Source of the DNA: a virus
Strand: one strand, 5' to 3'
Virus record (IMG/VR): IMGVR_UViG_3300023179_000177
Span: 1-46,116 of that record
Length of the DNA: 46,116 nucleotides
Positions 171 through 45,906 of this stretch are shown here, one piece after another. The notes under the pieces are model-generated. The model searched no databases. It was not told the DNA's origin and saw only the letters and a program-made list of their open reading frames with translations. Every line of letters begins with the position of its first letter. Position 1 is the stretch's first letter. The position numbers were made by a program, and so were the translations under genes.

Positions 171-1696
<1,526 letters not shown>

Positions 1697-1700
<4 letters not shown>

Positions 1701-3608: not shown

Positions 3609-4216
3609 TATTTTCTCGTTGCTCCTCTCAATACTCTGCCAGCAGTAATTGCATTGGTGACTGCGGTTGCAACACCTGATTGGGTTCCAGCGCCAGTTCT
3701 TATGAGCGTAGGTCCGTATCCAGCAAGTTTGGCTCCTGCGGCCCCTGAGAGTTTAGCAAATGACCTTAAGATTGCGTCGACCTCTGTCGGCCTAAAGAGT
3801 TGCCGAACACCTTCCTCAAATAGTTTGCTAGAATACCCGGCAGGGTTCTTACCAGTGAAGTCGGCAACAATGCTCTGGGCTTCCCTTGATCCTAATGGAG
3901 CCTGCCTCTCAACTGCCCCAATTCTTCTGGCAACTGTGGCAGATCTTGCTGCTGCTCTGTTCAGTGCGGAGAACTCATCTGCACCTTGAATTCCTGCCCT
4001 GGCAAGCCTGGCGAAATAGAAGGCAAGGGCACGGTATGGAGATACAGCCGCAATGTTCATCCCTCTGTTTCTGGCAATTTCTTGCGCCCTTCTCTGAGCC
4101 AGACGGTCTTGAGGAGTAAACTGCGTCCTGGACATCTGTGGAGTTCGGAACGCAGTTCTACCGCTAGAACCTCTAGCATTTCTGAAATCAAACGAATCGT
4201 TGTTTTTTCTTACCAT
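3608..4216 (-). CDS. Basic late protein of unknown function (202 aa)
   Basis: Not recognised. Begins MVRKNNDSFDFRNARG. It has many Arg and Gln residues in the first 60, then helical Ala/Arg segments (about 60-125: ALAFYFARLARAG, ALNRAAARSATVARR) and a Gly/Ala-rich C-terminus (LSGAAGAKLAGYGPTLIRTGAG) that could sit on or in a membrane. ATG at 4216 shares one base with the stop of the 2556-residue gene (TAATG) and is preceded by GAGGA about seven bases upstream. Coupling to both neighbours indicates that it is made with the late proteins. It may be a small internal virion protein. No catalytic signature was found. Confidence 0.6.
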   Translation of the reverse strand: MVRKNNDSFDFRNARGSSGRTAFRTPQMSRTQFTPQDRLAQRRAQEIARNRGMNIAAVSPYRALAFYFARLARAGIQGADEFSALNRAAARSATVARRIGAVERQAPLGSREAQSIVADFTGKNPAGYSSKLFEEGVRQLFRPTEVDAILRSFAKLSGAAGAKLAGYGPTLIRTGAGTQSGVATAVTNAITAGRVLRGATRK

Positions 4217-7200
4217 TATGGAATCCTCACTGTTGGTATATCTGGTTGAATTGGCCTGATTGTTGGGCGCATCCCTTCGTTGCTACCGAAGAGCCCTTTC
4301 CATAGCTCATCTGCTGCCAAAGATCCTGCGGTAGATCCTACAAACGTACCGATACCGCCGGATGCAAATGCTCCTATTCCGCCGCCAAGGATGGAACCAA
4401 CAATCCCGAACATTGTACGGCCCAGGTCGCCGCCTGTCGCAGCCGTAGCTGCAAGACCAGCGACAGAGCCGAAGATTCCTGCCTTTAGGGGGCTCTTGGT
4501 CAGAAGGTTTACTGAGTTAAGTCCAGCGGAGAACAGTGCTCCCTCTGGGGTTAGGTTGCCCTGAAGAGCCATGACTCCGACGTCTGCAGCCACGCCACCG
4601 CCAAAGTTTCCTTTAGGAGTCCTCAAGCCGAAGTCAATCTTCTTGAGCCCTGGGCTGAACTTTGGAAGAAGCTGGTCTGGTTGGAGCAGCCCAAGCAGTT
4701 TTCCTTGCTTGACTGACAGGTTCATAATTTCAGAGTCAGTATCAACGTACCCACCAGAGAAGTCTTCTGGATCGCGTCCCATCGCCTGATCCTGAAGCAT
4801 TTCATAGTCATTAGGGTCAACCACGTCTTCCCCAGACATTGATTGCTTCTGCTTCTTGTTAGGGTCGTACCCCTCAATGTTTAGCGGTGTGTCCGTTGGC
4901 GGATCAATCTCAAGGCTTGGGATAGTACCGGACTCGATAGCATCTACCAGGCGCCTAATCATGACAGTCGTTGGGCCTGGGGTTCCCCAATCGAACGGAG
5001 CCTTAAGTGTAGCTGGTCCGTTAAGATACTCGCGGATTACGCCCCAGGCGATTTCTCTTAGCGAAGTATCCGTCTTGGCGGCTACTTTGTCAATACCCCC
5101 GCTATATTTTCCGCTTTCATTTGGTGTTCCACGAAGGTAAGATAGCAGAAACTGTGTGTTTACGTCAAGCTTTCCGTTGTCATTCAATTGAATCGTGGCA
5201 ATCTTTGGCATCGTTTCGGGCACGGCTGGTCCTCCCTGTGAGGAAATAGTAATGCCAGACCCACCTGGAACAGCTTGTGAAGACTGGAAGTCTGTAGGCT
5301 GAATAAACACCCTTCGTGCGTTTTCTAGCTTCACCTTTCCGTCTTGTGTCTCAAGTAGCGTTCGGATCATCTGCTCGATAGCAGGCCCCTGCATGCGGCC
5401 AGACATATCAACTGACAGTGTCTTCCAGAAATTTCGGAAGAACATCTTCATCTCTACGCTGCCGATTGGCGGCAACTCCCCAAACTCTGGTAGCGTGGAG
5501 CGGATTGCTTCTTCAATGTTGCCGCTTGAAGCGTATTTGACAGCAACGGTCTTGGCAAATCTTGTGCCCATTCCGGCGGCCTTTCCGATAGCCTGACCGC
5601 TTACTGGGGCGACGTCCTCCTGAATAGTGCCACTGTCATACTCGTCTGCGTTTAGGTCAAACTCAATGACTTGCCCCTCTTCGTCAAGGCCAGTGGCTGC
5701 ATCAAATCCATCAATAGCCCTTTGACGCTTACGCTCCTTAGCCTGCGCTCGCCACTCAGCCTCGTTGACAATTTCAACGGTGCCGTCTGGTTTTGTAATT
5801 TGCATCATGCCTTCTTGGCCAGCAAAGCCACCCTGTCCCTGTTCCCACGATAGAATCTCTCTTGGGTTCTCTGCCTTGATACCCTCGTATAGCGCAGCAA
5901 CAAACTCCCTAGTGTCTCCTTCTGGGATAACAATTGCAGGAACCCGAAGGTCTCGTCCAAGTTTTCGTGATACTTCAGCAACAAGACGAGCAGCGATGTC
6001 CTGGCGCTCAGGGGCTGGGAGCGGCCTTCCGGCAAGATCTTTCGGATCTGGCAATCCAGCAGGCTTGTAGAACTCATTGTAGAATGCTGTGGCTTTATCG
6101 CCAAGGGCCCCGGACACACGCATTACATCAGGTCCTCCACTGGCAATATTCTGCAGCACCTTGTCTACAGCATCTGCTGTTTCAACTGAAACGGTAGCAG
6201 GCTCAAGCATTCGATAGATTGGATACATGAACTCATCTAGTGGCGTTCTAGTCTCAATCCGTGGAGCAACCTCGTGTCGATGATACTTAGGGTCAAGAGA
6301 ATCGCTCCACGACTTGCGCAGCGTGCCCTTAGCCGCTTCTGTCAGGGCCATAGCAGCTAGCCGTGCAGCGTCAAGGCTCTCTCGAACAATAGAGTCAAAT
6401 GTATCTCCACCGATACGCGCAGCTTCAATTGCTGAGGCTTTGTCTGCCAAGATAATTGTTGGCTCAGTAAGGCCAAAGCGCTCCATGTCCGACTTACTAA
6501 ATCGATTGCCGTATCCCATCTGTACAACGGCCTCTTCAGAAAGACGAAGCATGTACGTAAGGGCGCGAATGATATACATTGCGCCGCTATCACCGTCCAT
6601 TGTTTCAGTTCGAACAGTGTGACCAAACTTCTCAGGCGAAGCCAAGATATCATGCACTGTATAAGATCCGCCAATTGCCCTCTGGATTGCAGTGGTGGAT
6701 GGGGACGCCAACGCCATTGCCTGATCGCGGGTAAGCGTTTGACCAATAATGCCGCCGGAATAGCGCCGGCGTCCCTGCTCCGTGCTAATCGTAATTTTCC
6801 TATCGGCCATGAAGTTTGTCTGGGCGTCCTCAAGGCGAACCTTTGCCTTGGTGATTGCGTCCTGATCGCCAGACTGCTCTGCTGCCGCAAGCTCCTCCTG
6901 TGCGTGGGAAAGGTCATGAGCTGCTTTTTCGTTAACAGTAGACACAAGCCAGTCTGGGTATTCAGTGATTTTATACGCAGGGGCGCCAGCCATAAGTCCA
7001 GCAGGTTCAACGGAACTCTGCATTTTACCAACCTTGGCAAACGGAGCAGCCAGCGCCTCACCAGGAACAGGGCTGACCCTTGCTGCTGCTTGCTCTGCAC
7101 CAGTCATGCTGGAGTTGTAGATCATATCTTTTGCACGAGCAGCTGACCAGTTTGGTGCTAAGTTTGTGCGGAACGTGCCAGTCTGCTCGGTAATTGACGC

Positions 7201-10200
7201 AACAATTTCTGCCTCAAGTTGAGGGAAGATATCGCCATTGATGGCAAGGATCTCCAAGGCAGAGTACCCATCGAATGCAATGGCGGTGCCAAGTTCGTTG
7301 AGCAGGTTACCCATCTGGTTGGATTCAAATCCTGGCCCATCAGGAGAGAAGGCAACATCTAGTTGCCGAAGGGTTTCCTTCATTGCCTCCTGGCCATAAA
7401 TTTGGTTCGGATCAGTATGCTCAAACTGGTAGCCCTCAAGACGACGAATTTGATAACCGCCGTCAGCGGTTCGCTCTACTCGGAATGGATATACCTTACG
7501 ATGCTGGATGAAGCCAGTCTCGCTTGAGCGGTTAGCGACAACCGTACCATTCTTAAGCACAAGATATTTCGACACCACGATTGGCCGGATATTAAGTTTA
7601 AACTCTACGTTTTCGTTTAGGCCAACTCCTAAATCAACTGGTGACGTAGGATTTATAACTGACCTGCCAAGATCATTAATCTCGACATCGGTAATGATAC
7701 CCTGGTTAAGGCTTGCAATCTCCGTTGCAACAGGTGCAGGAAGAACGTAGTCTCCCGGGAGAAGTTCAACAAAGTTTTTATCAAATTTTGGCGGCTCATC
7801 ACCATACAAAGCCTTGCCTTCTTCGCTTGTCATGTATGCCAGAGCATACGCCTTGCCGTGTATTGCCGCAACTTCGTCTAGTACGCCCTTCCACTTTGCA
7901 TGCTCCCTGCGCTTCTTGTCAAGGTACCACTGCGGCAATGTAACCTTCATTGCTTTTGGCTTTCCTTCCGCGTCAACGTCTCCACCAACAACAATAAGTC
8001 CTCGCCATCCGCGTGCATTTACGCGCTCAGTTGCAACGTTAGCTGCCGCCTGGACGCCAAACATCTCGGCATATGCTCCGCCTTCGCCAAACTTTGGGGC
8101 AAGTTCTGCTTCGTACGTGTTTTCAAAGTCAGTCGTGTCCCAACTAATTGGATCTGTGCCTGTCGAACCAATAACCTTGTTCAGGTCTTGATTAAGAATA
8201 CGAAGTGCATCAGTTGCCTGTCGTCGCAAGAACGCAAGGCGCTTACCGCTAATACCACTTGGCAATGCTCGATACGTTTCAAGTTCTGGAATTGGAGCAA
8301 TGGCGCCCTGCTCTGCGGTTCCGCCGCCAGCGCCTATTGCAACGCCAGCAGCGTATCGATCCATGGCGTCTATTGCGCCCTGTACCCTCTCGATTCGTCG
8401 GCGCAACCCATCAGCCTGCGTAGCAAGGCTCGGCTTCTCAACCTTAACTCGTTCTACCTTTGGAGCCTCAATCTGCTGATCCCCAGCGATAACCCCTTGC
8501 TTGCCAAGGCGAGAGCGGTACTTAAATCCTGTGCGATAATTGAATAGCGAGAAGTCTGCTCGGTCATCAAGCTTTCGTACTGAGGTATATCGACGGATGA
8601 CGCCTAGAGCTTCTTCTATGCCAAGCAGGTCGGCAATTGGGCTCTTCTTTGTTCTGGTAAATACCTCTGTATTCCCGCCGTCAATGAAGCCATCTAGGTC
8701 AATTGAAGCCAAATCATCTCCGCCGCCATTTGCGACATCCCAAATGCCAACTTCGTCGACTACCCTCTGCAGGTCGTAGATAGCGTTGTCCTTGGTGATG
8801 CTAGGGATTCCACGTGAATCACCCGCACGTGCTACAGCGACGGTCTTCTTCTTGCTCCTTACCGGAACTGGCAGCAAGTCAAGGTCAAGTGAGCGGTACA
8901 TCTTTGGCTCGCCTGCTCGCGGAGACGATTGCGGAACGAGTCCGACCTGGGCTGACGCTAGTTGCCGAAGTTTTGCTTGCGTGCTTCTTCCATATAGGGA
9001 AGGCGCAGCCTCTGCGGCGGTCATGTCAACGCCAAGTGCCTCTACTTCCTTTGCTTTTGACGTCAGTCCGGTGTATTCACCAGAACTCATGGTCTTAGAC
9101 AGGCCCTTGATCATGGCCAGCGAGTATGGATCTCCAATTTCATGCAGAGTTCGAGAGAGTTCTAGCATGAGTGCCGCCATCTCGGCTCGCGTTTCACCGC
9201 TAAAGCGAACATTTCCGGAAGATTCTACGGTATTCATGTACCGAATTGCCATAAAGGCGTCGGCCATCACCTGGGCGACGGTCTTCTTGTCGCCAATGAT
9301 GGGCTTTCCTGGCTTAAAATCAAGTTCTGGGGGAAGAGTTATGCCCATTTTTGCTGCAAGAGCGTTGATACGCCCACGAACTGTCCGTCTAGGGTCGATT
9401 CCAGGCACAGGCTCCTGGTTTAGGCTGTCAAACTTGAAGCCGTACGCGCCGGATGCGCCAAGTGTGCGGTAGAGATTGGTCTTCTGCAGGGTTGAAAGTC
9501 CATCAAACCCCTGCATCTTGCTTCCCATGGTTGATGAGCGAGCGGCAGTTTCTCGCATCGTCTTAAATTCTTCAAGAAGTTTAGCCGTAAAGCCCTCTGG
9601 GGTGTCCATCTCGGGACCAGCTGCGCCAACTTTAACGTTGTCTGCACCTGTAGCTGGCTGAACAGTGATATCGCCAAACTCATTTGGCGGAATATTTACT
9701 GCGCCCTGCTTTGGCAGGTTGACTTGGTTCTTTGGATCTTGAATCCACTTGATGAGACGCGGATCTTCTGACGACTCTGGGTTGGCAATTGCTGCCTCTG
9801 CACCCTTAGCAAGGGCCTGAAGGAACGGGGACTCAAGACCATTACCTTCCCAACGAGCTGCGGCCTGTGTCCAGTGCACGAGAAGCTCCACCCACTGCTG
9901 GGGAGTTGTCCCCTCGCCAACGGCGGCCATGTTTTGCTGGACCCTCTCAAGAAGTCTTGGGTTTTGGCGCAGCTTCTCAGCAATGATTCTCGACATGAGG
10001 TCGATTTCTTCTGGGGAAACAGTGTCAGGCTTGTTTGCTTCTGGGCTCAACGCAAGGTAGGCGTGCTCAGACGACGGGTATACCTTGCCCTCGAATACCA
10101 CCGGGTAGCGGTTTTTAATATTGCCATGCTCAAGCGAGCTAGATGCCCCGCCCTTTGCTGTCCTTGGAAGATCGCTTGTGCGGTTTGTTAGTGCAGCAAG

Positions 10201-11886
10201 GAAGCCATTACGCTTGTTGGCGGAGTATACGTTGTTGGGGATATCCCATGGATTCTCTGTCGGAAATCCGCGCTTACGTTTGCTTTCCTCTTTTGCCGCT
10301 GCCGCAGCCTCTCGACTAGTGCTGAGTGAAAACGTAGAGCGACCCCTCGGGGCAATCCCGGCATCTCGACCGGGGGCAATCTGGTACATATTGCGGCGGA
10401 TAAGGTTCATCGTGTATTCCCCACCGCTCATTTGCGGACCGAACGGTCGGCCAAGCGAACGAGCAATGGCTCTTACCTCTGCGTCCACCGACTGCAAATC
10501 TGCTTCGCTGTGTTGCAGAACGCCACCGGCTGTACTCTTCCGGCTATGGCCCTTCCACGAGTGCGAAACAACTACGCCGCCTCGAGCGGCATGGGTAGTC
10601 TCGAACGCTGTGTCTGAGCCCTCTGCTCCGCCGCTATGGACCTCTACGCTTGGGTCGAGCGACTGAACATACGCCTGGATTTCTGCAAATCCGTTCTCTG
10701 TAAGTTTGCGCGTGCCGATACCGGCAATAGACTTGACATCGGTAGGAGGCCCGTCAACAGTCTTCCAGCCGCCAGCAGATCGCTGTACCTCTGTAGCGGT
10801 ATACCAGCGGTTGCTGATCTCGTCGTATACGTAAACTGGAATGCCGCGTAGCAAGGCTCCCTCTACCGCCCAGCCAGTGCCGCCATCAACCTTGCCGCTT
10901 CCAAGAAGTTTGCCAACGGCGACCACGGCGTCGACGTCCGTTTTTGTGGTGTTTGCGACGGTCGCGTTGGCTTCAATAATTGTGGTCTCTACATTTCGCC
11001 TAATTGGTTCGGTTGGCTTCCTGGCACGAGTCCCTGAGGCGGGTGCCGCGTTGCTGATTCCAAGTTCACTCAGCCTGCTATTGAGCCTCTCCCAAATTGC
11101 TGGGGCGCTGGCCTTAAGATTAGCCTTGCCTGTTCCAATTCCCCTGGAAGGAAAGTAGACATCCCTACCTGACGCAAGTGCAGCTTCAATCTTCCTCAGC
11201 TGGGCGTCCATAAGTTTTGAGAAGGTGGAGTCAGTTAAGTCCTCATCAGTAAGGAATGTGCCTGGGTCCCTCTTGGTTGGAACGCCAATCCACCCATCGC
11301 GGCCTGCGGCTGCCTCTGCCTGTCCGGCACCAGGCGTGGCTGTGCCTGTGTCGGCATTAAACATGTTGGAACCCCAAACGGCGATCTCGCCATCTGGGAC
11401 CGTGGATAGTTCGTCAACGTAGATGACCTGGCCACGACCAGCCTCTGTGGCCGCCGGGCCAGCCTTCAGTTCGGCCTTTACCTCTGGGCTACCGTACTTT
11501 TCTACGAAGTAGTCGACCGACCAGCGCTCGGTTTTAGCAATCTTCTGCCACTGCTCTAGGGTGAGCTTCTTTGGGTCAAACTCAGTATTGCTCACGACAT
11601 AGACAAACGCCTCACGACCATCCTGGGACGTAATCCGGTATGTTGCCCACTCACTCCAGCCTGGGCCCCACTTAGCGTCCCTGACGGTGCTGATCCGCCT
11701 ACCGGCAAGGATTTCGTCAAACGTCGTTGCTTCGCGGCCAGGGATATCTACAGGGTCTTTATCATAGCTATAGCCCATCGTCCTCGTTCCGGCGATCTGC
11801 ACTGGGTTATCAGGCTTCGGGACGAGCTTGTATACGATGTAGTGTAGGATGTCGCTATTGATGTCTCTAGGGCTATTTGTAGGCAT
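4216..11886 (-). CDS. Giant multidomain 'polyvalent' protein with SLOG-like and NADAR-like domains (2556 aa)
   Basis: The first and largest late gene. The N-terminal third looks like a chain of small domains. Residues about 152-276 (VWGSNM, a Gly-rich stretch, GVPTK, then SRGIGTGKA and APAIWERL) match the pattern of a short phage/bacterial domain of the A1S_2505/DUF7831 type. Residues about 298-395 (VDGGTGWAVEGAL, PVYVYD, SIAGIGTRKL) and 385-500 (HSGGAEGSDTAFE, then LIRRNMYQI) look SLOG/DprA-like, the nucleotide- or ADP-ribose-derivative-sensing Rossmann fold. Residues about 553-700 (NRYPVVFEGKVYPSSEHAYL) resemble NADAR, a family linked to ADP-ribose/NAD derivatives. Residues 700-2400 are helical and unassigned. 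The C-terminus (about 2440-2540) has glycine-rich hydrophobic runs (GSILGGGIGAFASGGIGTF) as in membrane-interacting virion proteins. ATG 11886 follows AAGGAGG. Delivery with the virion and an anti-defence role are inference. Confidence 0.75.
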   Translation of the reverse strand: MPTNSPRDINSDILHYIVYKLVPKPDNPVQIAGTRTMGYSYDKDPVDIPGREATTFDEILAGRRISTVRDAKWGPGWSEWATYRITSQDGREAFVYVVSNTEFDPKKLTLEQWQKIAKTERWSVDYFVEKYGSPEVKAELKAGPAATEAGRGQVIYVDELSTVPDGEIAVWGSNMFNADTGTATPGAGQAEAAAGRDGWIGVPTKRDPGTFLTDEDLTDSTFSKLMDAQLRKIEAALASGRDVYFPSRGIGTGKANLKASAPAIWERLNSRLSELGISNAAPASGTRARKPTEPIRRNVETTIIEANATVANTTKTDVDAVVAVGKLLGSGKVDGGTGWAVEGALLRGIPVYVYDEISNRWYTATEVQRSAGGWKTVDGPPTDVKSIAGIGTRKLTENGFAEIQAYVQSLDPSVEVHSGGAEGSDTAFETTHAARGGVVVSHSWKGHSRKSTAGGVLQHSEADLQSVDAEVRAIARSLGRPFGPQMSGGEYTMNLIRRNMYQIAPGRDAGIAPRGRSTFSLSTSREAAAAAKEESKRKRGFPTENPWDIPNNVYSANKRNGFLAALTNRTSDLPRTAKGGASSSLEHGNIKNRYPVVFEGKVYPSSEHAYLALSPEANKPDTVSPEEIDLMSRIIAEKLRQNPRLLERVQQNMAAVGEGTTPQQWVELLVHWTQAAARWEGNGLESPFLQALAKGAEAAIANPESSEDPRLIKWIQDPKNQVNLPKQGAVNIPPNEFGDITVQPATGADNVKVGAAGPEMDTPEGFTAKLLEEFKTMRETAARSSTMGSKMQGFDGLSTLQKTNLYRTLGASGAYGFKFDSLNQEPVPGIDPRRTVRGRINALAAKMGITLPPELDFKPGKPIIGDKKTVAQVMADAFMAIRYMNTVESSGNVRFSGETRAEMAALMLELSRTLHEIGDPYSLAMIKGLSKTMSSGEYTGLTSKAKEVEALGVDMTAAEAAPSLYGRSTQAKLRQLASAQVGLVPQSSPRAGEPKMYRSLDLDLLPVPVRSKKKTVAVARAGDSRGIPSITKDNAIYDLQRVVDEVGIWDVANGGGDDLASIDLDGFIDGGNTEVFTRTKKSPIADLLGIEEALGVIRRYTSVRKLDDRADFSLFNYRTGFKYRSRLGKQGVIAGDQQIEAPKVERVKVEKPSLATQADGLRRRIERVQGAIDAMDRYAAGVAIGAGGGTAEQGAIAPIPELETYRALPSGISGKRLAFLRRQATDALRILNQDLNKVIGSTGTDPISWDTTDFENTYEAELAPKFGEGGAYAEMFGVQAAANVATERVNARGWRGLIVVGGDVDAEGKPKAMKVTLPQWYLDKKRREHAKWKGVLDEVAAIHGKAYALAYMTSEEGKALYGDEPPKFDKNFVELLPGDYVLPAPVATEIASLNQGIITDVEINDLGRSVINPTSPVDLGVGLNENVEFKLNIRPIVVSKYLVLKNGTVVANRSSETGFIQHRKVYPFRVERTADGGYQIRRLEGYQFEHTDPNQIYGQEAMKETLRQLDVAFSPDGPGFESNQMGNLLNELGTAIAFDGYSALEILAINGDIFPQLEAEIVASITEQTGTFRTNLAPNWSAARAKDMIYNSSMTGAEQAAARVSPVPGEALAAPFAKVGKMQSSVEPAGLMAGAPAYKITEYPDWLVSTVNEKAAHDLSHAQEELAAAEQSGDQDAITKAKVRLEDAQTNFMADRKITISTEQGRRRYSGGIIGQTLTRDQAMALASPSTTAIQRAIGGSYTVHDILASPEKFGHTVRTETMDGDSGAMYIIRALTYMLRLSEEAVVQMGYGNRFSKSDMERFGLTEPTIILADKASAIEAARIGGDTFDSIVRESLDAARLAAMALTEAAKGTLRKSWSDSLDPKYHRHEVAPRIETRTPLDEFMYPIYRMLEPATVSVETADAVDKVLQNIASGGPDVMRVSGALGDKATAFYNEFYKPAGLPDPKDLAGRPLPAPERQDIAARLVAEVSRKLGRDLRVPAIVIPEGDTREFVAALYEGIKAENPREILSWEQGQGGFAGQEGMMQITKPDGTVEIVNEAEWRAQAKERKRQRAIDGFDAATGLDEEGQVIEFDLNADEYDSGTIQEDVAPVSGQAIGKAAGMGTRFAKTVAVKYASSGNIEEAIRSTLPEFGELPPIGSVEMKMFFRNFWKTLSVDMSGRMQGPAIEQMIRTLLETQDGKVKLENARRVFIQPTDFQSSQAVPGGSGITISSQGGPAVPETMPKIATIQLNDNGKLDVNTQFLLSYLRGTPNESGKYSGGIDKVAAKTDTSLREIAWGVIREYLNGPATLKAPFDWGTPGPTTVMIRRLVDAIESGTIPSLEIDPPTDTPLNIEGYDPNKKQKQSMSGEDVVDPNDYEMLQDQAMGRDPEDFSGGYVDTDSEIMNLSVKQGKLLGLLQPDQLLPKFSPGLKKIDFGLRTPKGNFGGGVAADVGVMALQGNLTPEGALFSAGLNSVNLLTKSPLKAGIFGSVAGLAATAATGGDLGRTMFGIVGSILGGGIGAFASGGIGTFVGSTAGSLAADELWKGLFGSNEGMRPTIRPIQPDIPTVRIP

Positions 11887-12142
11887 AGTCCTCCTTAAAC
11901 CCCTTTTAGGGGCCGCCGTTATGATCTATTTTATTTCCTGTCTAGGAAAAACGGCTCTACTATATATGCAGTGAAAATGCCGTTTTCTGCAACTTTTGTC
12001 ACGATTTTGTTTGTTTAAGATTTCTTATCACTGGGGTATACCGGTGTCGGAGCGGCTAGGTAACCCAATTCTGCGGGCGTTCGCAGAAAAGCCCGCAGGG
12101 GAGAGGGGGTTGCCCAATGGCAAACCCCGACTTTCGGTATCC

Positions 12143-13891: not shown

Positions 13892-14419
13892 ATGGGTTAC
13901 GATATTGTTACAGTTGAAGGCAATGAGGAACAAGCAAAGAAGTTTGCTGCCAAGTACCAGTATACCTATCTCTTTGACAAAGAGACAGGGCAGTTCGTCG
14001 GCGGGGGTCAAGTGTACTTCCGAGCCAACATCTGGGCTATGGCACCGCTTCGGCGCGTAATGGACAGCCTGCTATATGTTCTCAACATTGATGAGAAAGA
14101 TACACAAGAGTTCATTGAATCTATCAGCTGGAACGATGGCCGGCTGGTAACATCAGAGTTTCTTACAAAGGTGCTCGATAAGTTGGACAAAGTATCCAAC
14201 GGGGCAGTTGAAGAATACATTAAGCCTATTGTTACAACAGTAACACTTGAAATGTGGAACCCAGAGGAAGACTCTAAGGTTAGTATGCTAGTTGAAGGAC
14301 AGATAGTCCAGCGTGATTACTCGTTGGAAGAGAAAGCCAAGGACACCACTGCTATCGCAATGGAGTTCCTGGATTATATGCGAGTTGCCAAAGACCTTGG
14401 CGGCTTTGAAGTTTGGTAA
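13892..14419 (+). CDS. Hypothetical protein (175 aa)
   Basis: MGYDIVTVEGNEEQAKKFA at ATG 13892, with AAGGATAAGG just before; an in-frame upstream extension would cross the structured RNA and is rejected. Mixed alpha/beta composition, acidic, with helices at about 50-130 and a C-terminal helix (TTAIAMEFLDYMRVAKDLG). It resembles small actinophage-type hypothetical proteins in style, but I recognise no domain. The structured leader upstream suggests that its expression may be individually controlled. Confidence 0.6.
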   Translation: MGYDIVTVEGNEEQAKKFAAKYQYTYLFDKETGQFVGGGQVYFRANIWAMAPLRRVMDSLLYVLNIDEKDTQEFIESISWNDGRLVTSEFLTKVLDKLDKVSNGAVEEYIKPIVTTVTLEMWNPEEDSKVSMLVEGQIVQRDYSLEEKAKDTTAIAMEFLDYMRVAKDLGGFEVW

Positions 14420-14430
14420 GGAGAAAGTAT

Positions 14431-14877
14431 ATGTATCAGAAGTATGAGTATCAAATCGTTCGCAAAGAGAAGAACCCAGATGTATTTAGGATTGAAAGTC
14501 CGACACAAGCACATTCACTATTCACTAACTTTGCCGATGAGGCAACGCGTGAATCGTTGTTTGTTCTGCCAGTTGATGGACGCAACAATCTAATCGGCAT
14601 TCACGAGATTTATCGTGGCACCGCTACTGGTACAAGCGTACGAGTTAGCGAGATTCTTTCATCGTGTCTGCTAGCACAAGGCGTTGGTCTAGTGCTTATT
14701 CATAATCACCCAAGCGGTGACAGTCAGGCATCAGATGAAGATGTTCGTCTAACTATGGATGTTCTCAAAGCTTGTAGGTTGATGGATATTGAAATGCTTG
14801 ACCATCTTGTCATTGGCAAGAACTCATTCACAAGCATTCGTTCGCAGCAGCCTAATATCTGGGGGGGTGAAGAGTAA
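14431..14877 (+). CDS. radC-like: RadC-like JAB/MPN+ domain protein
   Basis: 148 residues. The JAMM zinc site of the RadC/JAB family is intact: Glu59 (HEIYRG), His91 and His93 in HNHPSG (91-96), and the SDxD segment at 101-104. Full-length bacterial RadC has an N-terminal helix-hairpin-helix region; here only the catalytic-type domain and a short beta N-terminus exist. Family members are predicted metallo-peptidases or isopeptidases, and 'DNA repair' is a historic label; the substrate is unknown. Such stand-alone copies are common on phages and plasmids, often near anti-restriction genes. ATG 14431 follows AAGGAG by eight bases; the longer frame starting at 14413 uses a poor start. Confidence 0.85.
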   Translation: MYQKYEYQIVRKEKNPDVFRIESPTQAHSLFTNFADEATRESLFVLPVDGRNNLIGIHEIYRGTATGTSVRVSEILSSCLLAQGVGLVLIHNHPSGDSQASDEDVRLTMDVLKACRLMDIEMLDHLVIGKNSFTSIRSQQPNIWGGEE

Positions 14878-32352: not shown

Positions 32353-35300
32353 CTACCGCAGCGTTGTTATTGCGTTTCCGGTATCTTCTTTCTTGTAACC
32401 GGAAAGTATCTCTTGTAGGCCACTGATTGCAGTGCTTGCGCCGCCGAACAATCCTGTATCGCTGAATGCCTTAGGCACTTCACCGAACATGCTCGCCGCC
32501 GTCAACTGATCGTAGCCCTGTCGAGAGACGGTAGAGATAGACCGCCTCAACCAACCTGGGACACCCACACCAATATCGTCTGGGTGACCTGGGATTAGTT
32601 GCGATAGAAGGAATAGATAGTCCGGTCGCTGCATCCCCTTTGCCTCAAAGTCAGGTGCAAAACCCTCGCTTGCAAGGTACTCTGTGATCTTGCTGTATGC
32701 CTGGTATCCAGCGCCTGGAGCGATGGCACCAAACGGTCGCCAGAACAGGAAGCGAGTAGCTTCTGGGAGAACCTTACCGAACATATACGATAGTGGATAC
32801 AGACCTAGGAACTGATGGTTCATGGTGCGCTCTACCAAGCCACGATCTGGATTAAAGTAATTGACCTTATCCATCTGTCGTGCCGCTTCTTGATAGCGGA
32901 ACTTTGTGGCCCTGAAGAACGCCTCCTCTGCTCCGTGATCCTGAATCAATGTGATCGCAGAGTCGTGTAGCGTACGTGCAATGCGCCTTGTTTGCGACTG
33001 GATACCAACTCCGCGCATCTTTAGAAGGTTATTTACAACGGAGTTGATCTGTGCGGTGGCGTCCGCGGTGCTCATGTTGAACAATCCGTTGCCGCCTGCT
33101 CGGTCAAAGATTTCCTGAACCACAGCTCCCATACTTCGGAACTTCATGCCGTACCTACGACCATGCGCGAGCGCCTGCATGACGTCATCAAAGCGCTCTG
33201 CCTCGAACAACTGCGGAGCCCATGTCCTATACAGTTCACGAACAATCAACTCGTCAAGCTGAGACTTTGTTGCTTGGCGACCAAGGCCATTAATCACTTC
33301 ATCTTTAAACTTGGTGACTGCCTGGTTTAGATTCTTGTAAGATTCAGATCCCTTAATACCATCTACACCATATGTTGGCAAATCTCGCTTGACCAAGCGT
33401 GCTGCGTCTTCTACTTCGCGCAGGTTCTTCTCAAGCTGAGTTACCTCGTACCCTGCTGCCCTTGCTTCGTCAACCACATTGATGCGAGCAAGCCGCACGA
33501 AGTCTCGCGGCCTTCCGTTAAGCAGCAACTGCATAGCCTCTGGGCTTTCAGAGAATGGGGTGAATACTTCAGCAGACGCTCTAGCTCGAGCAAGGCCAGT
33601 TGCTGAAGGACGCACGGCCCATCCGTATCCAGGAGGAGTAAGATGGTCGAAAGCCTCTCCGCCCCAGCCTAGGTCAACCGCTCGTCGGTGTTCGCCAAGA
33701 TAGCCAAGGAACATGTCAAGTTCGTCATTGCCGTATCGAGCCGCCAGTTTTACGTAGTGATCCGGGTTTGCCTTGGCGATATGAGCAGCCCAATCCTCAG
33801 CAGTAGTTTTGATTGCCATCATGTCTCGATGGGCTTCCTTAAACTCTGCGATGTTGTCAAGGATGCTGCCGCTACCGCTCTTGCGCAGTCGGCGGATCAT
33901 GCTGATCACACTATCTTCGCTGATTGACTCAACGAGCGTGCTTGGAATACCACTGCGGCTGGCGACCATAGTTCCGAAAGCGGCTTCGTGCATGTTCTTT
34001 GCAATCGTAGATCCGCGCTCTCCAAGCATGTTTCGAATAGCTTGTGGATCTGCAATAATCTTGAAGCCACCCTCACCATCCGGCACGCGCTTGCTGAATC
34101 CTGCCTTGATGAGCGACTGCTCCATGTCTGCTCGCCTAATACCGCGAGCCTCTCCAAAGAACGGAGACTCAATGACTTCTTGAATCCAGAAGAGTGGGTT
34201 GTAAGCGTACTTAAGTGTAGGGTAGAAATTTTCTGAGATAACTGCAATGGCCTTGCCCATGCCAATGCCTGGAATTCCATTGGCCTTGATTTGTCCGGTA
34301 ATCCATTGCGTTACACCAGACGTAGTAACATCGCCAGCATATGCGCGAAGTATCGCTGTGTCAATATCTAAGCGAGGATTTCCGCTAGCCACTGCGTCTG
34401 ACAACCGCTTAACCCAACTGTCACCAGGGTTCAACTCTCGGATCGCAGCATCTGCTGCGTTCTCAATGTCTGACTTTCCACCGAAGGAGCTAACCAGACC
34501 GCGTGTCCCCACTCGCTTCTGCGCTGCTAGTTCGTTGATCTTTGCATCAAAGAGCGCAATCTCGTCTGGAGTCATATACGGAGCCAGGACAGACACAAGC
34601 TTTTGTCGTGCTCGTCCAGTAATCTCAGACTGATACGTTGCGCCAAACATCCGGCGTAGAGAGTTACCAAAGAATCCTTCGGTTGGTCGGTTTTTAAAGA
34701 CATGCAGTCCATCGACAAAGTCTGAAGTGATGTCTACGTACGGCATGGTTGTCTGCATGACAATCTTGCGAACAGTTCCCAAGGCTGGATCTGGGACGCT
34801 CATCGTTGTCGGAACCTTGATGATACCGTCTTCCGGCGCAATCCCCAACCTATACCCTGATGCGCGGACCGAATCGTCGAGACCGCTGATGTCGGCTGCG
34901 TTGCCACCTGCTGCTACCCATGCGTTCTTTACGGCAACAAGGTCTCCCTCTTTGGCCGCAACAAATGCTGCATCGTTTGCAAGAGATGAATCAAGCAAAG
35001 CCTTAACCTGCCCAGGTGTAGCTGCCCCACCTCTAGATCCGTACTCTAGATTGCGGACATCAGCAAACTGTTCGGCAGCATGCCTGGCCCAGATCGCCAA
35101 TGCAGAATTTGGATCAAACGTCGCGCTCCTGCCAAGGATTGGCCGCAATGCTGCAATCATCTTATCAGGTAGCCCAAGTGCTGCTAGATCGTCAACTGTT
35201 GTGCTTGCGTTATTGAGCATGGCATGAGCCTGCAGCCACTTGCTAACTTCTGTATCAATAAGGCTGTCTGCCCTAAGAATAGTAAGACGTGCAACTTTTC

Positions 35301-37284
35301 CATTGCCAGCAATGATGCGCATCTGGTCATCTGTGATGATCCTGCCAGTTAGACGCTGCACTTCTTTCTTTGCAGCGGCTTTCTTGACATCGTTCATCGC
35401 ATCAAATCCTTGAGCCACAGAGAATACGCGTCGCACATTCCCGGCTCGATTGATTACGAAGCCGTATCGAAGGTGACGTGCAAGAGCCATTTGTCGCCCA
35501 AGCTCTGCGCGTAGTTTGAGATTCTCTGTAACAACACCGGTTTCACTGAAGTACTTACCGCCAACAATGCGACCATTCTCAAACCTGGCTCCGCCAAGCC
35601 ACGTATTAGCAATATAGTCCAGCTGCTCTGGCGTTGCAACAACTCGCTTTCCAAAACTTGAGATGGCGGTAGACGATGCATTTGCAAGTTCGTCCGCAAC
35701 ACCGATAATGTCTGTGGTCACAATGTTATTTGCACGCAGAGTGCTAACAGCGACGGATTCATCTACTGCACCCTGAACAAGAAGACCAGTCATACGCTTA
35801 GTCATCTCATCGGCATGTTGAGCAAGAGTATCGCTGGCTGTTGTCTGCCAATCAACTTTGTCAAGCCCACGCTGAGTGACTGCACTAGAGCGCAAGCCGT
35901 TCGTACGTCGCGCCTTCCACAGCTTTAGGTCCCCAGCATCCGGGTTGAGCCGCATGTTATCTGCCTGGGCAGAGGCAGTATCAAGGATTGATGTAACCTC
36001 GTAGTCAAGCGCCAGCTCATCTGTCATATACTTTTGCTGAAGGCTGCGGCCCTCAGCCGACGCCTGCTTGATTAGATACTGAGTTACTCCAGTATCAATC
36101 TCACCTGCAAGGTACATTTGTCGTGCCTTGAGTACGTCTGACACAAGCGTTTCTGTAGCAGCTGCTGCCTCGTCTGAAACGCCAGCGAACTCAATGTCTC
36201 GCACAGTTGACAGTGCGGTCTGCTGGCTGGCAAGCCCAAGGCGACGAGCAGCGATTCTCTCCACACCCTTAGGGAACGGACCCTGAGCAATTGTATCAAT
36301 TGTCTCATAGGCTCCAGGCATTGCCTTATTTATTGCCTCTGTAATCTTCCAGGCAAATGCACCCTTTACGGCGTCGGACACGCCACGGACCTTGTCGAAT
36401 AGCCCTGCGTGCATGTCTGCAATATACTTGTACTTAGAAAGACCGCCAAGTGGGCGACCAGATGCTTCCATAGCCTGAACAAGCCTAATCTTCCTGGACA
36501 GGTCAAGGCCGACTCCAGCGCGTAGGGACTTAGGTAGCTTTGAGATAACAGTTGCTGCACCCTTATATCCAAGTGCGGCCCCACCTGCAAGTCCTGCAAC
36601 GCCAAGTCCTGCACCCGCGACTGCGCCGCCGCCAACCCCGACAACCTTTAGGGCTGCCGGAAGTGCGGCTACTTTGCCAAAGACAAATGGCGTAAGGTTA
36701 AGAGGGTCTAGAAGCAGTGATGCCGCAAGGTTCATGGTCCTATCGTCTGAGAACGATCGACCAGTCTCTCGCATGTACTCGACAATTTTTTGATTATCTG
36801 TGCCCATGTTCATCATCCCCTGAATGTCGTCAGGTAGATCTTCCTTGCGAGTGAACATAAGCCGCATGGTTGCGCCAATGTCTTGCACGAATCTGCCAGG
36901 TCCGCCAATCCAATCTAGGATGGTTCCGCCGATCCCGCCAACAACCTTGCCTGGACCTTCGGCGTAAGCTCTTGCCGGGCCGAAGGTGTTGATCATTTCT
37001 GATACGCCAGCCATGGCTCCGCCGACACCTTCTGCCAACATTCCGATTCCTCGGATCGGCAGGCTTGCTCCATAGCTTAGAAGGTCTGGAGATCCGGCAA
37101 CGCCTGGCTCACCAGTCTGAGCATTTACGTCGCGTGATGGGTCGTACTGTAGTTGCTGGCCAACCTCGTTAACCCTTCCAAAGTCAATCGTTGCCTTGGC
37201 TGGGTTTATCCCTATGCGGATATCTCGACTAAGGATAGGATCATATGGGTCGGGAGCATTCGTAGGCTGGTATTTAAATGGCAC
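32353..37284 (-). CDS. Very large probable virion protein between portal and scaffold (1643 aa), GTG start
   Basis: Not recognised. GTG 37284 has GAGG six bases upstream. N-terminal residues 1-110 are Pro/Gly/Asp-rich. A Gly/Ala hydrophobic run lies at about 205-250 (VVGVGGGAVAGAGLGVAGLAGGAALG), capable of inserting into a membrane. The remaining 1400 residues are helical with Ala/Arg/Lys. There is no lysozyme, SLT, protease or RNA-polymerase motif. Size, the hydrophobic patch and the location between portal and scaffold suggest an internal (ejection) protein. A tape measure is unlikely since there are no tail-tube genes beside it. Confidence 0.65.
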   Translation of the reverse strand: MPFKYQPTNAPDPYDPILSRDIRIGINPAKATIDFGRVNEVGQQLQYDPSRDVNAQTGEPGVAGSPDLLSYGASLPIRGIGMLAEGVGGAMAGVSEMINTFGPARAYAEGPGKVVGGIGGTILDWIGGPGRFVQDIGATMRLMFTRKEDLPDDIQGMMNMGTDNQKIVEYMRETGRSFSDDRTMNLAASLLLDPLNLTPFVFGKVAALPAALKVVGVGGGAVAGAGLGVAGLAGGAALGYKGAATVISKLPKSLRAGVGLDLSRKIRLVQAMEASGRPLGGLSKYKYIADMHAGLFDKVRGVSDAVKGAFAWKITEAINKAMPGAYETIDTIAQGPFPKGVERIAARRLGLASQQTALSTVRDIEFAGVSDEAAAATETLVSDVLKARQMYLAGEIDTGVTQYLIKQASAEGRSLQQKYMTDELALDYEVTSILDTASAQADNMRLNPDAGDLKLWKARRTNGLRSSAVTQRGLDKVDWQTTASDTLAQHADEMTKRMTGLLVQGAVDESVAVSTLRANNIVTTDIIGVADELANASSTAISSFGKRVVATPEQLDYIANTWLGGARFENGRIVGGKYFSETGVVTENLKLRAELGRQMALARHLRYGFVINRAGNVRRVFSVAQGFDAMNDVKKAAAKKEVQRLTGRIITDDQMRIIAGNGKVARLTILRADSLIDTEVSKWLQAHAMLNNASTTVDDLAALGLPDKMIAALRPILGRSATFDPNSALAIWARHAAEQFADVRNLEYGSRGGAATPGQVKALLDSSLANDAAFVAAKEGDLVAVKNAWVAAGGNAADISGLDDSVRASGYRLGIAPEDGIIKVPTTMSVPDPALGTVRKIVMQTTMPYVDITSDFVDGLHVFKNRPTEGFFGNSLRRMFGATYQSEITGRARQKLVSVLAPYMTPDEIALFDAKINELAAQKRVGTRGLVSSFGGKSDIENAADAAIRELNPGDSWVKRLSDAVASGNPRLDIDTAILRAYAGDVTTSGVTQWITGQIKANGIPGIGMGKAIAVISENFYPTLKYAYNPLFWIQEVIESPFFGEARGIRRADMEQSLIKAGFSKRVPDGEGGFKIIADPQAIRNMLGERGSTIAKNMHEAAFGTMVASRSGIPSTLVESISEDSVISMIRRLRKSGSGSILDNIAEFKEAHRDMMAIKTTAEDWAAHIAKANPDHYVKLAARYGNDELDMFLGYLGEHRRAVDLGWGGEAFDHLTPPGYGWAVRPSATGLARARASAEVFTPFSESPEAMQLLLNGRPRDFVRLARINVVDEARAAGYEVTQLEKNLREVEDAARLVKRDLPTYGVDGIKGSESYKNLNQAVTKFKDEVINGLGRQATKSQLDELIVRELYRTWAPQLFEAERFDDVMQALAHGRRYGMKFRSMGAVVQEIFDRAGGNGLFNMSTADATAQINSVVNNLLKMRGVGIQSQTRRIARTLHDSAITLIQDHGAEEAFFRATKFRYQEAARQMDKVNYFNPDRGLVERTMNHQFLGLYPLSYMFGKVLPEATRFLFWRPFGAIAPGAGYQAYSKITEYLASEGFAPDFEAKGMQRPDYLFLLSQLIPGHPDDIGVGVPGWLRRSISTVSRQGYDQLTAASMFGEVPKAFSDTGLFGGASTAISGLQEILSGYKKEDTGNAITTLR

Positions 37285-37292
37285 GCACTACC

Positions 37293-40001
37293 TCACAACT
37301 TGATTGGGCCGCCAGAACCTCTGACAGGAGATTGAGCAGTTGTTTTAATTGAGTTAACCAAACCGCCACCAAGGTTCCTGAAGAAGTAATCTTGACCGCC
37401 AATCTGGTCTCGGACAGGGCCAAGATTAATTGGCTGCGGCTGAGGCGGGGTAGGCGGGTTAATGTTAGGTATAGCTGGTGGCGGAGAGTTAGGCGGCAAA
37501 ACAGTTGGCATAATCCCCGAATTATCCATCCACTGTTGACTACCGTAACCGAACACTGGGACTGGGGCAGGTGAGTTCGGCGGGAACGCGCTTTGGTTAA
37601 TATACGACAGGTCTGGAACTTGTCCGCCAACCGAATCGATAAGTTTCTCAGTAAATGCCGCTTGCGCTGGGTCAACCAACTTTGGCTTAATAATGTCTGT
37701 AACCATACCAAGAAGCTTGCCAGTCTTATCCTGCACTCCGAACCTAGTAAGATACGACTTAACTGCAGCATCAAGGTTCCCGGTGTAATCAATTGGTATC
37801 TGAGACAAGATCTTTTGCGCGTAGGTGGCGGCCATGTCGCGGACAGTGTTGTTCGATCCGGTTGTGTCCTTGCCAACAGTAACTATCCTATTATACCACT
37901 CTGAACCTTTAGAATTATATCCAGAGATTAGCCACTGATTAAACCTTGTTCCTCCAAGTTCTGCTGCCAAGGCTGTGCTGATCGTAATGACTCCGCCTGA
38001 GTTTGTGCTCATTACTCTTGGGGTGGTGCCAGCGATACCTGTATCGCCCATAAATGATTCCAAGTCAGGAAGTGTCAGCCTAAATGTGTTTCCGTTAGAA
38101 ACAAACTCAAGATAGTCGTTATTGTCCATTGATGACCCAGTAGAGCTGGCAAAGTTAGACCCACCTGGAATTGGGACATAGTACAGCGTCTGGCCGTTGA
38201 TCGTAACCTCTGACCCTGGGGCATTTTTTACTTCAGTTAAGACCTTTTCTCGCTTCACATAAATGAGTTCGTTTGGGTTGCCAGTTGTGCTAAATGTGGA
38301 GTACGATGGATCGCTTGCGACTAATGTGGTCTGCACTGGAACCATCTGGGTCTGCCTAGACCGTGGGTCAAATTGGTAGGCAAACACCAAGTTGGGATCT
38401 GCATCAACCTCAGCCACCATAGAAGCAGTTACAGAGCCACCAAAAACTGTGCCAATCGTAGCAGTTCCGCCACCAGCAATTCCTAACGATAGGTTGCTCC
38501 TAATGGTTCCGTTGCTCATCGAGTTCAGGGCTGTTGCAACAAGTTGCAGTGCGCTGTCGTTTGAGTTCCAGTAATCATTAATATTGGTTGACAAAAGACC
38601 TAGGCTTGTAATTACGGACTGGCGGTCCAGTCCAGTAGCTGAGGCAACCTCGTCAACGAAGTCCGACATGTTTGTTGACTGAGTACCAGGAAACAGGTCA
38701 ATAAGATTGCCGCTGGAGATGCGCGATACTTGGTCGGCAAGGATGATATCCTCGTACCTATCTAGCTCGGAAACCGCCGTTGCCGCACCCTTCCATGCAT
38801 TAAACTCTGCAGTAAACTTATATGGGTCAGCAGAGAACGGCTGATTAATCGAACCGCCTGCCTGGTTTATTGATGTGGTAAAGGCAGTTGTCGCCGTTTG
38901 CATGGCAACGTTGTACGTTCCCTTTGCTGACTCCTGGGAGATAATGCCGCTTAGTTGTCGAAGAAGTTTAGTTTCCTCAACGAATCCCGCAGCGTAAAGG
39001 GATTGTACCTCGTCAGAGAATGCATTAATCTTATCGTAGAATGTGTCAATAGTTCCCTGATCCCACCCTGCTGCTAGGCCAGCATCTTGAATGAGGGTAG
39101 ACAGAGACTTCCCGCTGTTGGCATCAAATAGGTTTAACAGACTTACTAGCCAGTCTTGCCCGTCTCCGCGAATCTCTGCCTTGACAGCCTCTGCAGCAGT
39201 TTTGCTGGCGAAGAACCTGTCTACAATTGGAGATACTAGAGATTGGATAGACTTTGCCAAAGCAAGCTGTTCGTCCTTAATCCTAGCTCCGACTGCATCA
39301 ATGCGGGCCTTGGCTGCGTCTGCCTTGCTGCGCTCCTGCGCATCTGCTCGTGCATTTAGGATCTGCTGGTACTGCTGGCTGCTTTCGGTAAACCCGGCTG
39401 CTTTTGCCCTCTCAAGTTCCTTGTTGTAAAATTCTACAAGGCTCGCCGCACTGGTTGTCCCAGCCTTATACTTTCTAATAAGGTCAGCTGCAGTAAAGTC
39501 ATGGGAAGCTGTAAACTTAGCTAGTTGAATTCGGCTCTTGTCGGCGTCTGTCATGCTTGGGTCTGCTGCAATTTTGTCCAGTATGTTTTCGTATTCGCCC
39601 AAATCAAGTGGACCAGTTCCGCTTCCGCCGAAAAGCGTACGATCAACAGATGTACCGTAAGCGTACGCGCTGCGCGCTAGGTCTTCCTTATCTTTCAAAG
39701 AGCTAAGGCGGAACTGCTCAGCTCGTTGCATAAGGCGGTCATACCCAGTGCTGTCACCAGTATCGCGTGCCAGTTCTGCTTGTGAAACATACCAAGCATA
39801 TACAGCATCTGAGGTGGCAGCATTTGTGTTGCCGCCAGATGTGAAGTTATTCCGCGTGGTGCCGCTACGCATGTTGTTGGCGTAGGCGGTAAGCATTGCC
39901 TCTTCTTGGTTGTTGCGCTCCTCACGAAGCAAGGAGTAGATCAGGGCGCTCATGTTCTGAGACCCAGCGCTAGTTCGTGCAAATCGTCCTTGTCGTGCCA
40001 T
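37293..40001 (-). CDS. Large probable virion protein downstream of portal (902 aa)
   Basis: Not recognised. Residues 1-330 are helical and Ala/Gln-rich ('LIYSLLREERNNQEEAMLTA', 'AKAAGFTESSQQYQQILNARADAQERSKADAAKARIDAVG'). The centre (about 470-700) is Ser/Thr/Gly-rich beta. The C-terminus (about 830-902) is a disordered Pro/Asn segment (PPNSPPPAIPNINPPTPPQP). No catalytic motif. ATG 40001 shares a base with the portal stop and has GGAGG upstream, so it is coupled to the portal. Together with the 1643-residue protein it may build an internal core or ejection apparatus. This is inferred from place and composition only. Confidence 0.6.
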   Translation of the reverse strand: MARQGRFARTSAGSQNMSALIYSLLREERNNQEEAMLTAYANNMRSGTTRNNFTSGGNTNAATSDAVYAWYVSQAELARDTGDSTGYDRLMQRAEQFRLSSLKDKEDLARSAYAYGTSVDRTLFGGSGTGPLDLGEYENILDKIAADPSMTDADKSRIQLAKFTASHDFTAADLIRKYKAGTTSAASLVEFYNKELERAKAAGFTESSQQYQQILNARADAQERSKADAAKARIDAVGARIKDEQLALAKSIQSLVSPIVDRFFASKTAAEAVKAEIRGDGQDWLVSLLNLFDANSGKSLSTLIQDAGLAAGWDQGTIDTFYDKINAFSDEVQSLYAAGFVEETKLLRQLSGIISQESAKGTYNVAMQTATTAFTTSINQAGGSINQPFSADPYKFTAEFNAWKGAATAVSELDRYEDIILADQVSRISSGNLIDLFPGTQSTNMSDFVDEVASATGLDRQSVITSLGLLSTNINDYWNSNDSALQLVATALNSMSNGTIRSNLSLGIAGGGTATIGTVFGGSVTASMVAEVDADPNLVFAYQFDPRSRQTQMVPVQTTLVASDPSYSTFSTTGNPNELIYVKREKVLTEVKNAPGSEVTINGQTLYYVPIPGGSNFASSTGSSMDNNDYLEFVSNGNTFRLTLPDLESFMGDTGIAGTTPRVMSTNSGGVITISTALAAELGGTRFNQWLISGYNSKGSEWYNRIVTVGKDTTGSNNTVRDMAATYAQKILSQIPIDYTGNLDAAVKSYLTRFGVQDKTGKLLGMVTDIIKPKLVDPAQAAFTEKLIDSVGGQVPDLSYINQSAFPPNSPAPVPVFGYGSQQWMDNSGIMPTVLPPNSPPPAIPNINPPTPPQPQPINLGPVRDQIGGQDYFFRNLGGGLVNSIKTTAQSPVRGSGGPIKL

Positions 40002-45153: not shown

Positions 45154-45906
45154 TGTTTTATCTCCTTTCGCTACTTGAATTTTTGCTACAACTCCCTGAG
45201 CCACCCTTATTGCGGCGGCATTATCAATCGTACGCTTAGAGATAGTCTGAACAGGAGGCGTAATAGCCACAGGAGCAGATGAGCTTACAGGCACGATCTG
45301 TGAGACTGGAGCCACAGTTGGGACAGGTGCGGATGACTTCTTCGGCACTGCTGTAAAGATCAGGCAGCGCTTGTGTGGTGCGTCCCCCTTCGAAGAGGCA
45401 ATCACCTTGAGGTCCGCAAGAGACACCTCCACAGCATACGTCTCTTTCCCCTTGCCGCTCATCGTTGGGTCCGCCCATTGTACCTTCCCTTCAACCATCG
45501 CGGCACAGGTCATGTGCCCGTATGTTTTCCCTGGGTTGCGCTTCTGGTGCGCCTTATGCCAGGCGCTCATCTGAACGGTTGCAGGGTAGCCCTTTGCCTG
45601 CTGCACGTTGATGCCGACGACTGCGCCAGCCTTCAGTGCGGCAACCACTTCATCCCATGACTTAGCGTACTTAGGCTTTAAGCCAACAAGTGGCGCTGCC
45701 TTCACTAGCTGTGGGAATGTCGTGGGCGTACCCTGCCCCTCTACATCTTTTCGTCCGACTTTCTCTAGGAACTTAACCCCATCCTTGGAGGTAAATGACG
45801 ATCCGGTAAGGAAGTTAGCAGCAGCCATCAGCGTAGATGGTGCGCAATCGTCCATCCATCCGCCCTTCTCGATGCTGTCTGTCTGTGTTACAATCTTTAG
45901 ACTCAT
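44944..45906 (-). CDS. Endolysin: C39-like cysteine peptidase fused to a two-helix membrane tail
   Basis: 320 residues. The N-terminal 185 residues form a papain-fold peptidase of the C39-like kind: Cys21 (WMDDCAPSTLMAAANFL), His131 (TYGHMTCAAM) and Asp146 (VQWADPTM) are the expected triad. A Pro/Val/Ser linker follows (190-225). From Met252 there are two hydrophobic helices (about 267-284 and 290-306), which is the shape of a class II holin. That segment has its own ribosome site and can be made separately. It probably cleaves peptidoglycan peptide bonds. ATG 45906 overlaps the upstream stop (ATGA). The membrane tail on the long form is unusual for an endolysin. Confidence 0.8.
   Translation of the reverse strand: MSLKIVTQTDSIEKGGWMDDCAPSTLMAAANFLTGSSFTSKDGVKFLEKVGRKDVEGQGTPTTFPQLVKAAPLVGLKPKYAKSWDEVVAALKAGAVVGINVQQAKGYPATVQMSAWHKAHQKRNPGKTYGHMTCAAMVEGKVQWADPTMSGKGKETYAVEVSLADLKVIASSKGDAPHKRCLIFTAVPKKSSAPVPTVAPVSQIVPVSSSAPVAITPPVQTISKRTIDNAAAIRVAQGVVAKIQVAKGDKTMKDQIIAAALDALQAALSTAIAVFLGLGVSIFDLTGDGAKAIAASAISAALLVLQRWLDEDNTRYGRTR

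Follow-up and report, generated by a model that had tools for sequence, protein, structure and literature searches.

The window, 46,116 nucleotides of DNA from an uncultured phage (IMG/VR record IMGVR_UViG_3300023179_000177), carries on its minus strand a giant late open reading frame (ORF), the translated product of which (P0001) shares 69% amino acid identity with a full-length relative encoded on a 41.7-kb IMG/VR phage contig (L002). The region between positions 9787 and 11439 highlighted in the initial annotation corresponds to residues 700 to 150 of this 2,556 amino acid protein. The ORF, its segments and its neighbours are located as follows:

11890..11896, minus strand: ribosome-binding site AAGGAGG, 3 nt ahead of the giant-ORF ATG
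4216..11886, minus strand: giant late ORF P0001, 2556 aa
11437..11886, minus strand: N-terminal cassette, residues 1-150; no Pfam match, block missing from L002
11080..11385, minus strand: DUF7831 domain (PF25176), residues 168-269
10750..10935, minus strand: SLOG segment B, strands 4-5 (DAVVAVG, GGTGWAVE, PVYVYD), residues 318-379; matches our own SLOG profile from position 89, AlphaFold2 model
10648..10749, minus strand: SLOG segment A1, strand 1 (IAGIGTR), residues 380-413; matches phrog_768 from position 4 and our own profile to position 170
10372..10647, minus strand: SLOG segment A2 (SGGAEGSD ... RNMYQI), residues 414-505; matches phrog_768 to position 121 and our own profile at 4-87
9781..10233, minus strand: NADAR-like domain, residues 552-702, from alignments and profile comparison (hhalign to NADAR 94.5%)
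4597..9771, minus strand: body, residues 706-2430, about 22% identical in L010, L030 and L031
4219..4596, minus strand: Gly-rich hydrophobic C-terminal region, residues 2431-2556, from hydropathy; 45% identical in L010
3608..4216, minus strand: 202-aa gene overlapping the giant-ORF stop, order kept in L002
2205..3608, minus strand: 467-aa gene of the late cluster, no family match
171..1700, minus strand: collagen-like tail fibre carrying a collar domain, identified as a tail fibre by Pfam and PHROG

The predicted start of the giant ORF is credible, since a strong ribosome-binding site is appropriately placed upstream and both the leader and the ATGCCT at the start are kept ahead of the homologous gene in L002. 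At its other end the stop codon overlaps the start of the next gene (TAATG at 4216), and a fibre-assembly-type gene is also located downstream on the same strand. The giant gene heads a late gene cluster. In L002 the gene order runs on into a 344-aa gene, the terminase and the portal, which in the window sit at the opposite end (from position 45906 downwards). As the L002 order joins window positions 1 and 46116, the window corresponds to a map that is circular or permuted and has been cut at this point. Two further large, unassigned proteins, of 1,643 aa (32353-37284, minus strand) and 902 aa (37293-40001, minus strand), are encoded between the portal and a scaffold-like gene and represent other ejected-protein candidates, the former being hydrophobic and rich in Gly/Ala over residues 197-238. 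A RadC-like JAB domain gene (14413-14877, plus strand; Pfam e-value: 3e-30) is found in a plus-strand block of lower GC content. When cultured phages were searched with the body and C-terminus of the giant protein and with the terminase, no match was obtained, and the window portal (40001-41968, minus strand) is matched only by distant Gordonia phage portals, at about 23% amino acid identity.

The A1S_2505/DUF7831-like unit proposed near the N-terminus is borne out as a DUF7831 domain, with residues 168-269 matching PF25176 well above its curated cut-off (e-value: 1.3e-14; Bitscore: 54.5; cut-off: 27), which places the domain within this family. Its predicted structure aligns with those of several DUF7831 proteins, from giant viruses as well as phages (Foldseek probability: 1.00). 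The excised domain is furthermore related at the profile level to A1S_2505-type domains (85%, with a score of 39 where shuffles did not exceed 16), while the A1S_2505 model itself (NF049995) gives no match to the window domain. A direct comparison of DUF7831 with macro domain profiles was negative (4%). The A1S_2505-like domains of L034 and L067, when compared over their full length with the Macro domains of phages (L068-L071), gave a 31% relation (score 27, against 17 in shuffles), on which suggestive basis A1S_2505 may be Macro-like. No paper on DUF7831 was found in the literature searched.

Residues 290-505 form a single DprA-like SLOG domain that is circularly permuted, with the segment order B-A1-A2. 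The DprA-like profile phrog_768 matches residues 385-503 with its positions 4-121 (e-value: 2.4e-13; excised SLOG region: 2.9e-16), thereby linking the region to the SLOG superfamily, and the remaining third of the DprA-like family (GGTG ... PVYVYD) precedes this match, at residues 318-379. A second stretch of the giant protein also passes the phrog_768 search. A profile of our own was built from nine phage SLOGs with the order A2-B-A1 and searched with native and rotated sequences. The native window protein matches it as positions 89-170 followed by 4-87, while artificial rotation of the L002, L007 and L010 sequences restores a single continuous match (3-170). The earlier proposal of two SLOG/DprA-like units is thus upheld with regard to the SLOG family and revised with regard to their number, as two tandem SLOGs are ruled out by each half lacking what the other has and by rotation restoring one domain.

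The five core strands and the nucleotide-site motifs GIGTR, SGGAEGSD and GGTGWAVE are all present. In an AlphaFold2 model of residues 150-725 (mean pLDDT: 82, with domain cores mostly above 90) the five-stranded SLOG is complete, in the order b4-b5-b1-b2-b3. Since the top PDB matches of the multi-domain Foldseek search were spurious whole-chain alignments, only local ones were used. These include DprA (3uqz) and LOG (5zbl), each with a probability of 0.84 and e-values of 0.1-0.3 in a sequential alignment that cannot follow the permutation, while the SLOG of phage Atu_ph07 is matched with a probability of 1.00 (2.0 Å over 89 columns). The window SLOG departs from the canonical A1-A2-B order, which is observed in gp76 of phage ZC03, in L034, in the Achromobacter protein of L067 and in Agitococcus (L066), while Klebsiella phage Pylas, Atu_ph07 and PBECO4 show the order A2-B-A1. 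All three rotations of the domain therefore exist. The SLOG is a Rossmann-type domain and probably the ligand binder of the array. In LOG enzymes, the catalytic Glu is carried by the motif PGGxGTxxE. In each of the four sequences of the window type GGTGWA(V/T) is followed by a Glu, against mostly Gln in the A2-B-A1 relatives, which may be taken as a hint of SLOG catalysis. A PADLOC scan returned one weak ShosA (DprA-type) match, nothing specific and no Thoeris link.

The NADAR-like unit recognized in the initial annotation is supported by profile-profile comparison, although neither a NADAR match in Pfam or Foldseek nor the active-site Lys could be recovered. A profile of thirteen relatives, in which E607, H671 and W679 are invariant, was compared with one of eight genuine phage and bacterial NADARs, giving a hhalign probability of 94.5% (score 52), while three unrelated profiles and 60 column shuffles (two runs) scored no higher than 16 (probability below 1%). 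A profile HMM of the NADAR-like domain also matches the NADAR of Pseudomonas phage CL (e-value: 6e-7). Homology of residues 552-702 to NADAR is thus detectable by profile comparison, with the alignment comprising the Glu motif and the KLRQNPxL helix which follows it. The Pfam NADAR family (PF08719), by contrast, has no match at an e-value of up to 10, either in the excised domain or in the whole genome, and a search of the PDB with a separate AlphaFold2 model of the domain (pTM: 0.83) returned no NADAR structure among the matches at this threshold, and so no YbiA-like fold. The NADAR of E. coli C7 requires a catalytic Lys (K95), seven residues past the Glu (E88) (PMC11543638). The equivalent position is occupied by Ser, Asn or Gln throughout the window lineage, and by Lys or Arg in the outgroups L019, L032-L034 and L065-L067. 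Of the catalytic pair, the window lineage thus retains the invariant Glu607 and has lost the Lys, and it also lacks the AK-x-x-GR helix found in true NADARs. Judged from these alignments, residues 552-702 appear to be a NADAR-derived, divergent and trimmed domain, which we do not file as NADAR and the hydrolase activity of which is probably altered or absent. As Glu607 is kept and the active-site Lys lost, the domain more likely binds its ligand or has an altered chemistry.

The body of the giant protein shows no match in Pfam, PHROG or the PDB, nor to the virion RNA polymerase (vRNAP), and no homologue of it was identified among known ejected proteins. An N4-like RNA polymerase was considered for this region and rejected (hhalign to the Pylas vRNAP: 0.2%; no Pfam vRNAP match). 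The glycine-rich hydrophobic C-terminus noted earlier was confirmed and is mildly hydrophobic, with the best 19-residue windows at residues 2492-2512 (mean hydropathy: 1.48). In distant relatives it is better conserved than any other part of the body, at 45% amino acid identity compared with about 22%.

Comparison with relatives shows that the N-terminus is an exchangeable cassette array, comprising the N-terminal cassette, DUF7831, SLOG and the NADAR-like unit. The L002 relative lacks the first ~150 amino acids as a clean block, the gap lying directly behind the leader and start codon, both of which are conserved. More distant members of the same protein family (L007, L009/L010, L030 and L031) have bodies only about 22% identical to that of the window protein, while in L007 and L010 the SLOG and NADAR-like domains share 61-64% and 48-49% amino acid identity, respectively, with their window counterparts. 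The SLOG is missing from L030 exactly between shared flanks. Both the window-type SLOG and DUF7831 are absent from L031 (5967-13565), where a cpYpsA-type SLOG (PF12694; Bitscore: 33; cut-off: 26.2), itself rotated (profile positions 44-127 ahead of 1-30), occupies the same slot. Functionally similar SLOGs are thus exchanged in one slot beside a constant NADAR-like unit. L009, L010, L030 and L031 have an extra cassette of ~110 amino acids (FYYHYTEAGNGDKI...), which follows DUF7831 (or the N-terminus) and precedes the SLOG slot. By eye, this HYT-motif cassette resembles the HYT-type ADP-ribosyltransferases, and it has no Pfam match.

The same domains recur together elsewhere. Domain scans of the fetched loci revealed a NADAR-like domain fused with or adjoining a SLOG in eleven of thirteen distinct contigs, with L009 and L010, which are identical here, counted once and L030 and L033 as the exceptions. 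An Achromobacter protein of 607 aa, possibly on a mobile element (L067; 6924-8747), combines a canonical SLOG, A1S_2505 (NF049995; e-value: 5e-38), a NADAR-like domain and DUF4326 (PF14216; e-value: 4e-17), while in Variovorax (L065; 6341-8384) and an Agitococcus metagenome-assembled genome (L066; 8001-9193) a NADAR-like gene lies directly beside a canonical SLOG gene. Other phages have giant ORFs (2,900-3,800 aa) in which SLOG is combined with the NADAR-like domain (L019, L032 and L034) or with DUF7831 (L042 and L045), or which carry DUF7831 alone. Since domain orders and rotations differ, these fusions probably arose repeatedly, and this is good evidence of joint function. Across L041-L057, DUF7831 is found in phage ORFs of giant size (about 1,900-3,900 aa), one of which, in L049, adjoins another giant ORF that encodes a genuine NADAR. 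Pseudomonas phage CL (Schitoviridae; L004) encodes, within 7947-8912 and 9545-10033, a genuine NADAR fused to a domain that is SLOG-like by eye and, close to this fusion, an A1S_2505-type gene.

We tentatively favour the reading, to which we give somewhat less than even weight, that P0001 is a late giant polyvalent protein which is packaged and ejected with the DNA and the N-terminal array of which blunts NAD-based immunity. We infer packaging, ejection, the ligand and the counter-defence effect from gene context, domain recurrence and the analogy with a SLOG in the vRNAP of phage Pylas. The protein would be made late and packaged, with its body and Gly-rich C-terminus acting in packaging or passage. 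After entry, the N-terminal array would bind, and perhaps break down, NAD-derived ADP-ribose nucleotides, the candidate ligands being the cyclic ADPR isomers used by TIR/Thoeris-type systems, such that immunity could be blunted ahead of phage gene expression. The position in a late cluster, upstream of the tail fibre, terminase and portal genes, is in accordance with this reading. However, the nearest SLOG profile belongs to the DprA-like, ssDNA-binding group rather than the cADPR-sensing clade, while the loss of the NADAR Lys and AK-x-x-GR helix and the lack of a NADAR fold among the Foldseek matches also count against it, together with the negative search for a PADLOC or Thoeris link and the body matching neither a family nor a known ejected protein. 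A more specific form, in which the protein would serve as a virion-delivered, swappable sponge for ADP-ribose nucleotides, with SLOG cassettes changed in one slot to fit the cyclic ADPR isomer used by the immunity of the host, and would act ahead of any phage transcription, is speculative and we regard it as doubtful.

The DprA-like affinity of the SLOG (phrog_768) is what lends weight to the main rival, in which the SLOG would bind incoming ssDNA and the NADAR-like domain would strip ADP-ribose from guanine, thus guarding the DNA against DarT-type toxins. The DprA of a jumbo phage has been proposed as a ssDNA-binding protein (PMC7824862), and NADARs, including one from a phage, reverse guanine ADP-ribosylation (PMC11543638, PMC11125620). 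However, the NADAR Lys is absent in the window lineage, the swap to a cpYpsA-type SLOG in L031 argues for nucleotide handling rather than a DprA function, and the recurrent A1S_2505 and DUF4326 partners point to ADPr chemistry, and as such we consider DNA guarding rather unlikely. Somewhat less probable still is that P0001 is in the first place an ejection-channel or internal virion protein, like T7 gp16 or N4 gp50, the N-terminal domains of which would be passengers, either sensors of host nucleotides for the timing of ejection or nearly neutral. Its giant size, the late cluster with other large proteins encoded in it and the conservation of the Gly-rich C-terminus above the rest of the body are consistent with such a role, but between lineages conservation is 48-64% for the SLOG and NADAR-like domains of the N-terminus and ~22% for the body, which rules out neutral passengers. 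That the protein is not packaged, and would act late within the cell on ADPr signals or superinfecting elements, seems improbable given the late structural cluster, the giant body with its conserved Gly-rich end and the location of the Pylas SLOG inside the RNA polymerase of an ejected family, even though there are relatives that form proteins of their own and the pairing of NADAR-like domain and SLOG is also found in bacterial or mobile-element genes.

Should the module enter with the DNA, as in the favoured reading, NAD-based signalling immunity would be pre-empted from the moment of entry, without waiting for early genes to be expressed, and it could be read from the cassette slot which SLOG fits which signal. 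The findings also provide a testable role for DUF7831, and the SLOG within the Pylas vRNAP offers a cultured entry point to the system. The occurrence of the SLOG in all three circular rotations furthermore represents a clean natural example of a domain family that has been permuted more than once.

Taken one by one, polyvalent proteins, the SLOG and NADAR domains of phages and the circular permutation of SLOGs (cpYpsA) are already known. No earlier account of a third rotation of the DprA-like SLOG, of an exchangeable array on the late giant protein of this phage family or of the DUF7831/A1S_2505-SLOG-NADAR-like association was found in searchable papers. The polyvalent proteins of phages and conjugative elements have been proposed to be injected (Iyer et al. 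2017, PMC5512222), and P0001 resembles them in its giant size, its several unrelated effector-type domains, its late-gene context among virion genes and its shuffling. The polyvalent-type, late multi-domain character originally ascribed to it therefore holds, by virtue of the DUF7831, SLOG and NADAR-related domains, although none of the domains described for polyvalent proteins in that paper were detected in it and neither SLOG nor NADAR occurs in that paper. Viral SLOG, NADAR, Macro and DUF4326 domains have been proposed to counter soluble ADPr derivatives (PMC9503650), in a network with the same domain combinations as in the window protein and its relatives. According to that survey, viruses typically encode such domains as separate proteins, the polyproteins of RNA viruses excepted (PMC9503650), whereas here they head a late protein of 2,556 aa and include a permuted SLOG and DUF7831. 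SLOG domains also serve on the side of the host, where ThsA effectors sense 3'cADPR through theirs (PMC11204291). With respect to the individual domains, the A1S_2505 family (NF049995) shows a profile relation only, the window domain being DUF7831 (PF25176). The window unit has in common with NADAR (PF08719; YbiA/gp30.3) the motif with the Glu, the xxKxxQNPxL helix and the region of the last Trp, while it is missing the middle helix, has lost the Lys and has no Pfam or fold match. The known circularly permuted SLOG cpYpsA (PF12694), which occupies the same slot in L031, is of another family than the DprA-like SLOG of the window. The N4-like vRNAP of Klebsiella phage Pylas (NC_049444) harbors a SLOG of the same family inside a giant virion protein (residues 988-1161; 44% amino acid identity over 73 residues), in the rotation A2-B-A1 and together with the catalytic domains of a vRNAP, which are absent from the window protein, and the vRNAPs of its phage family are ejected (PMC12633501).
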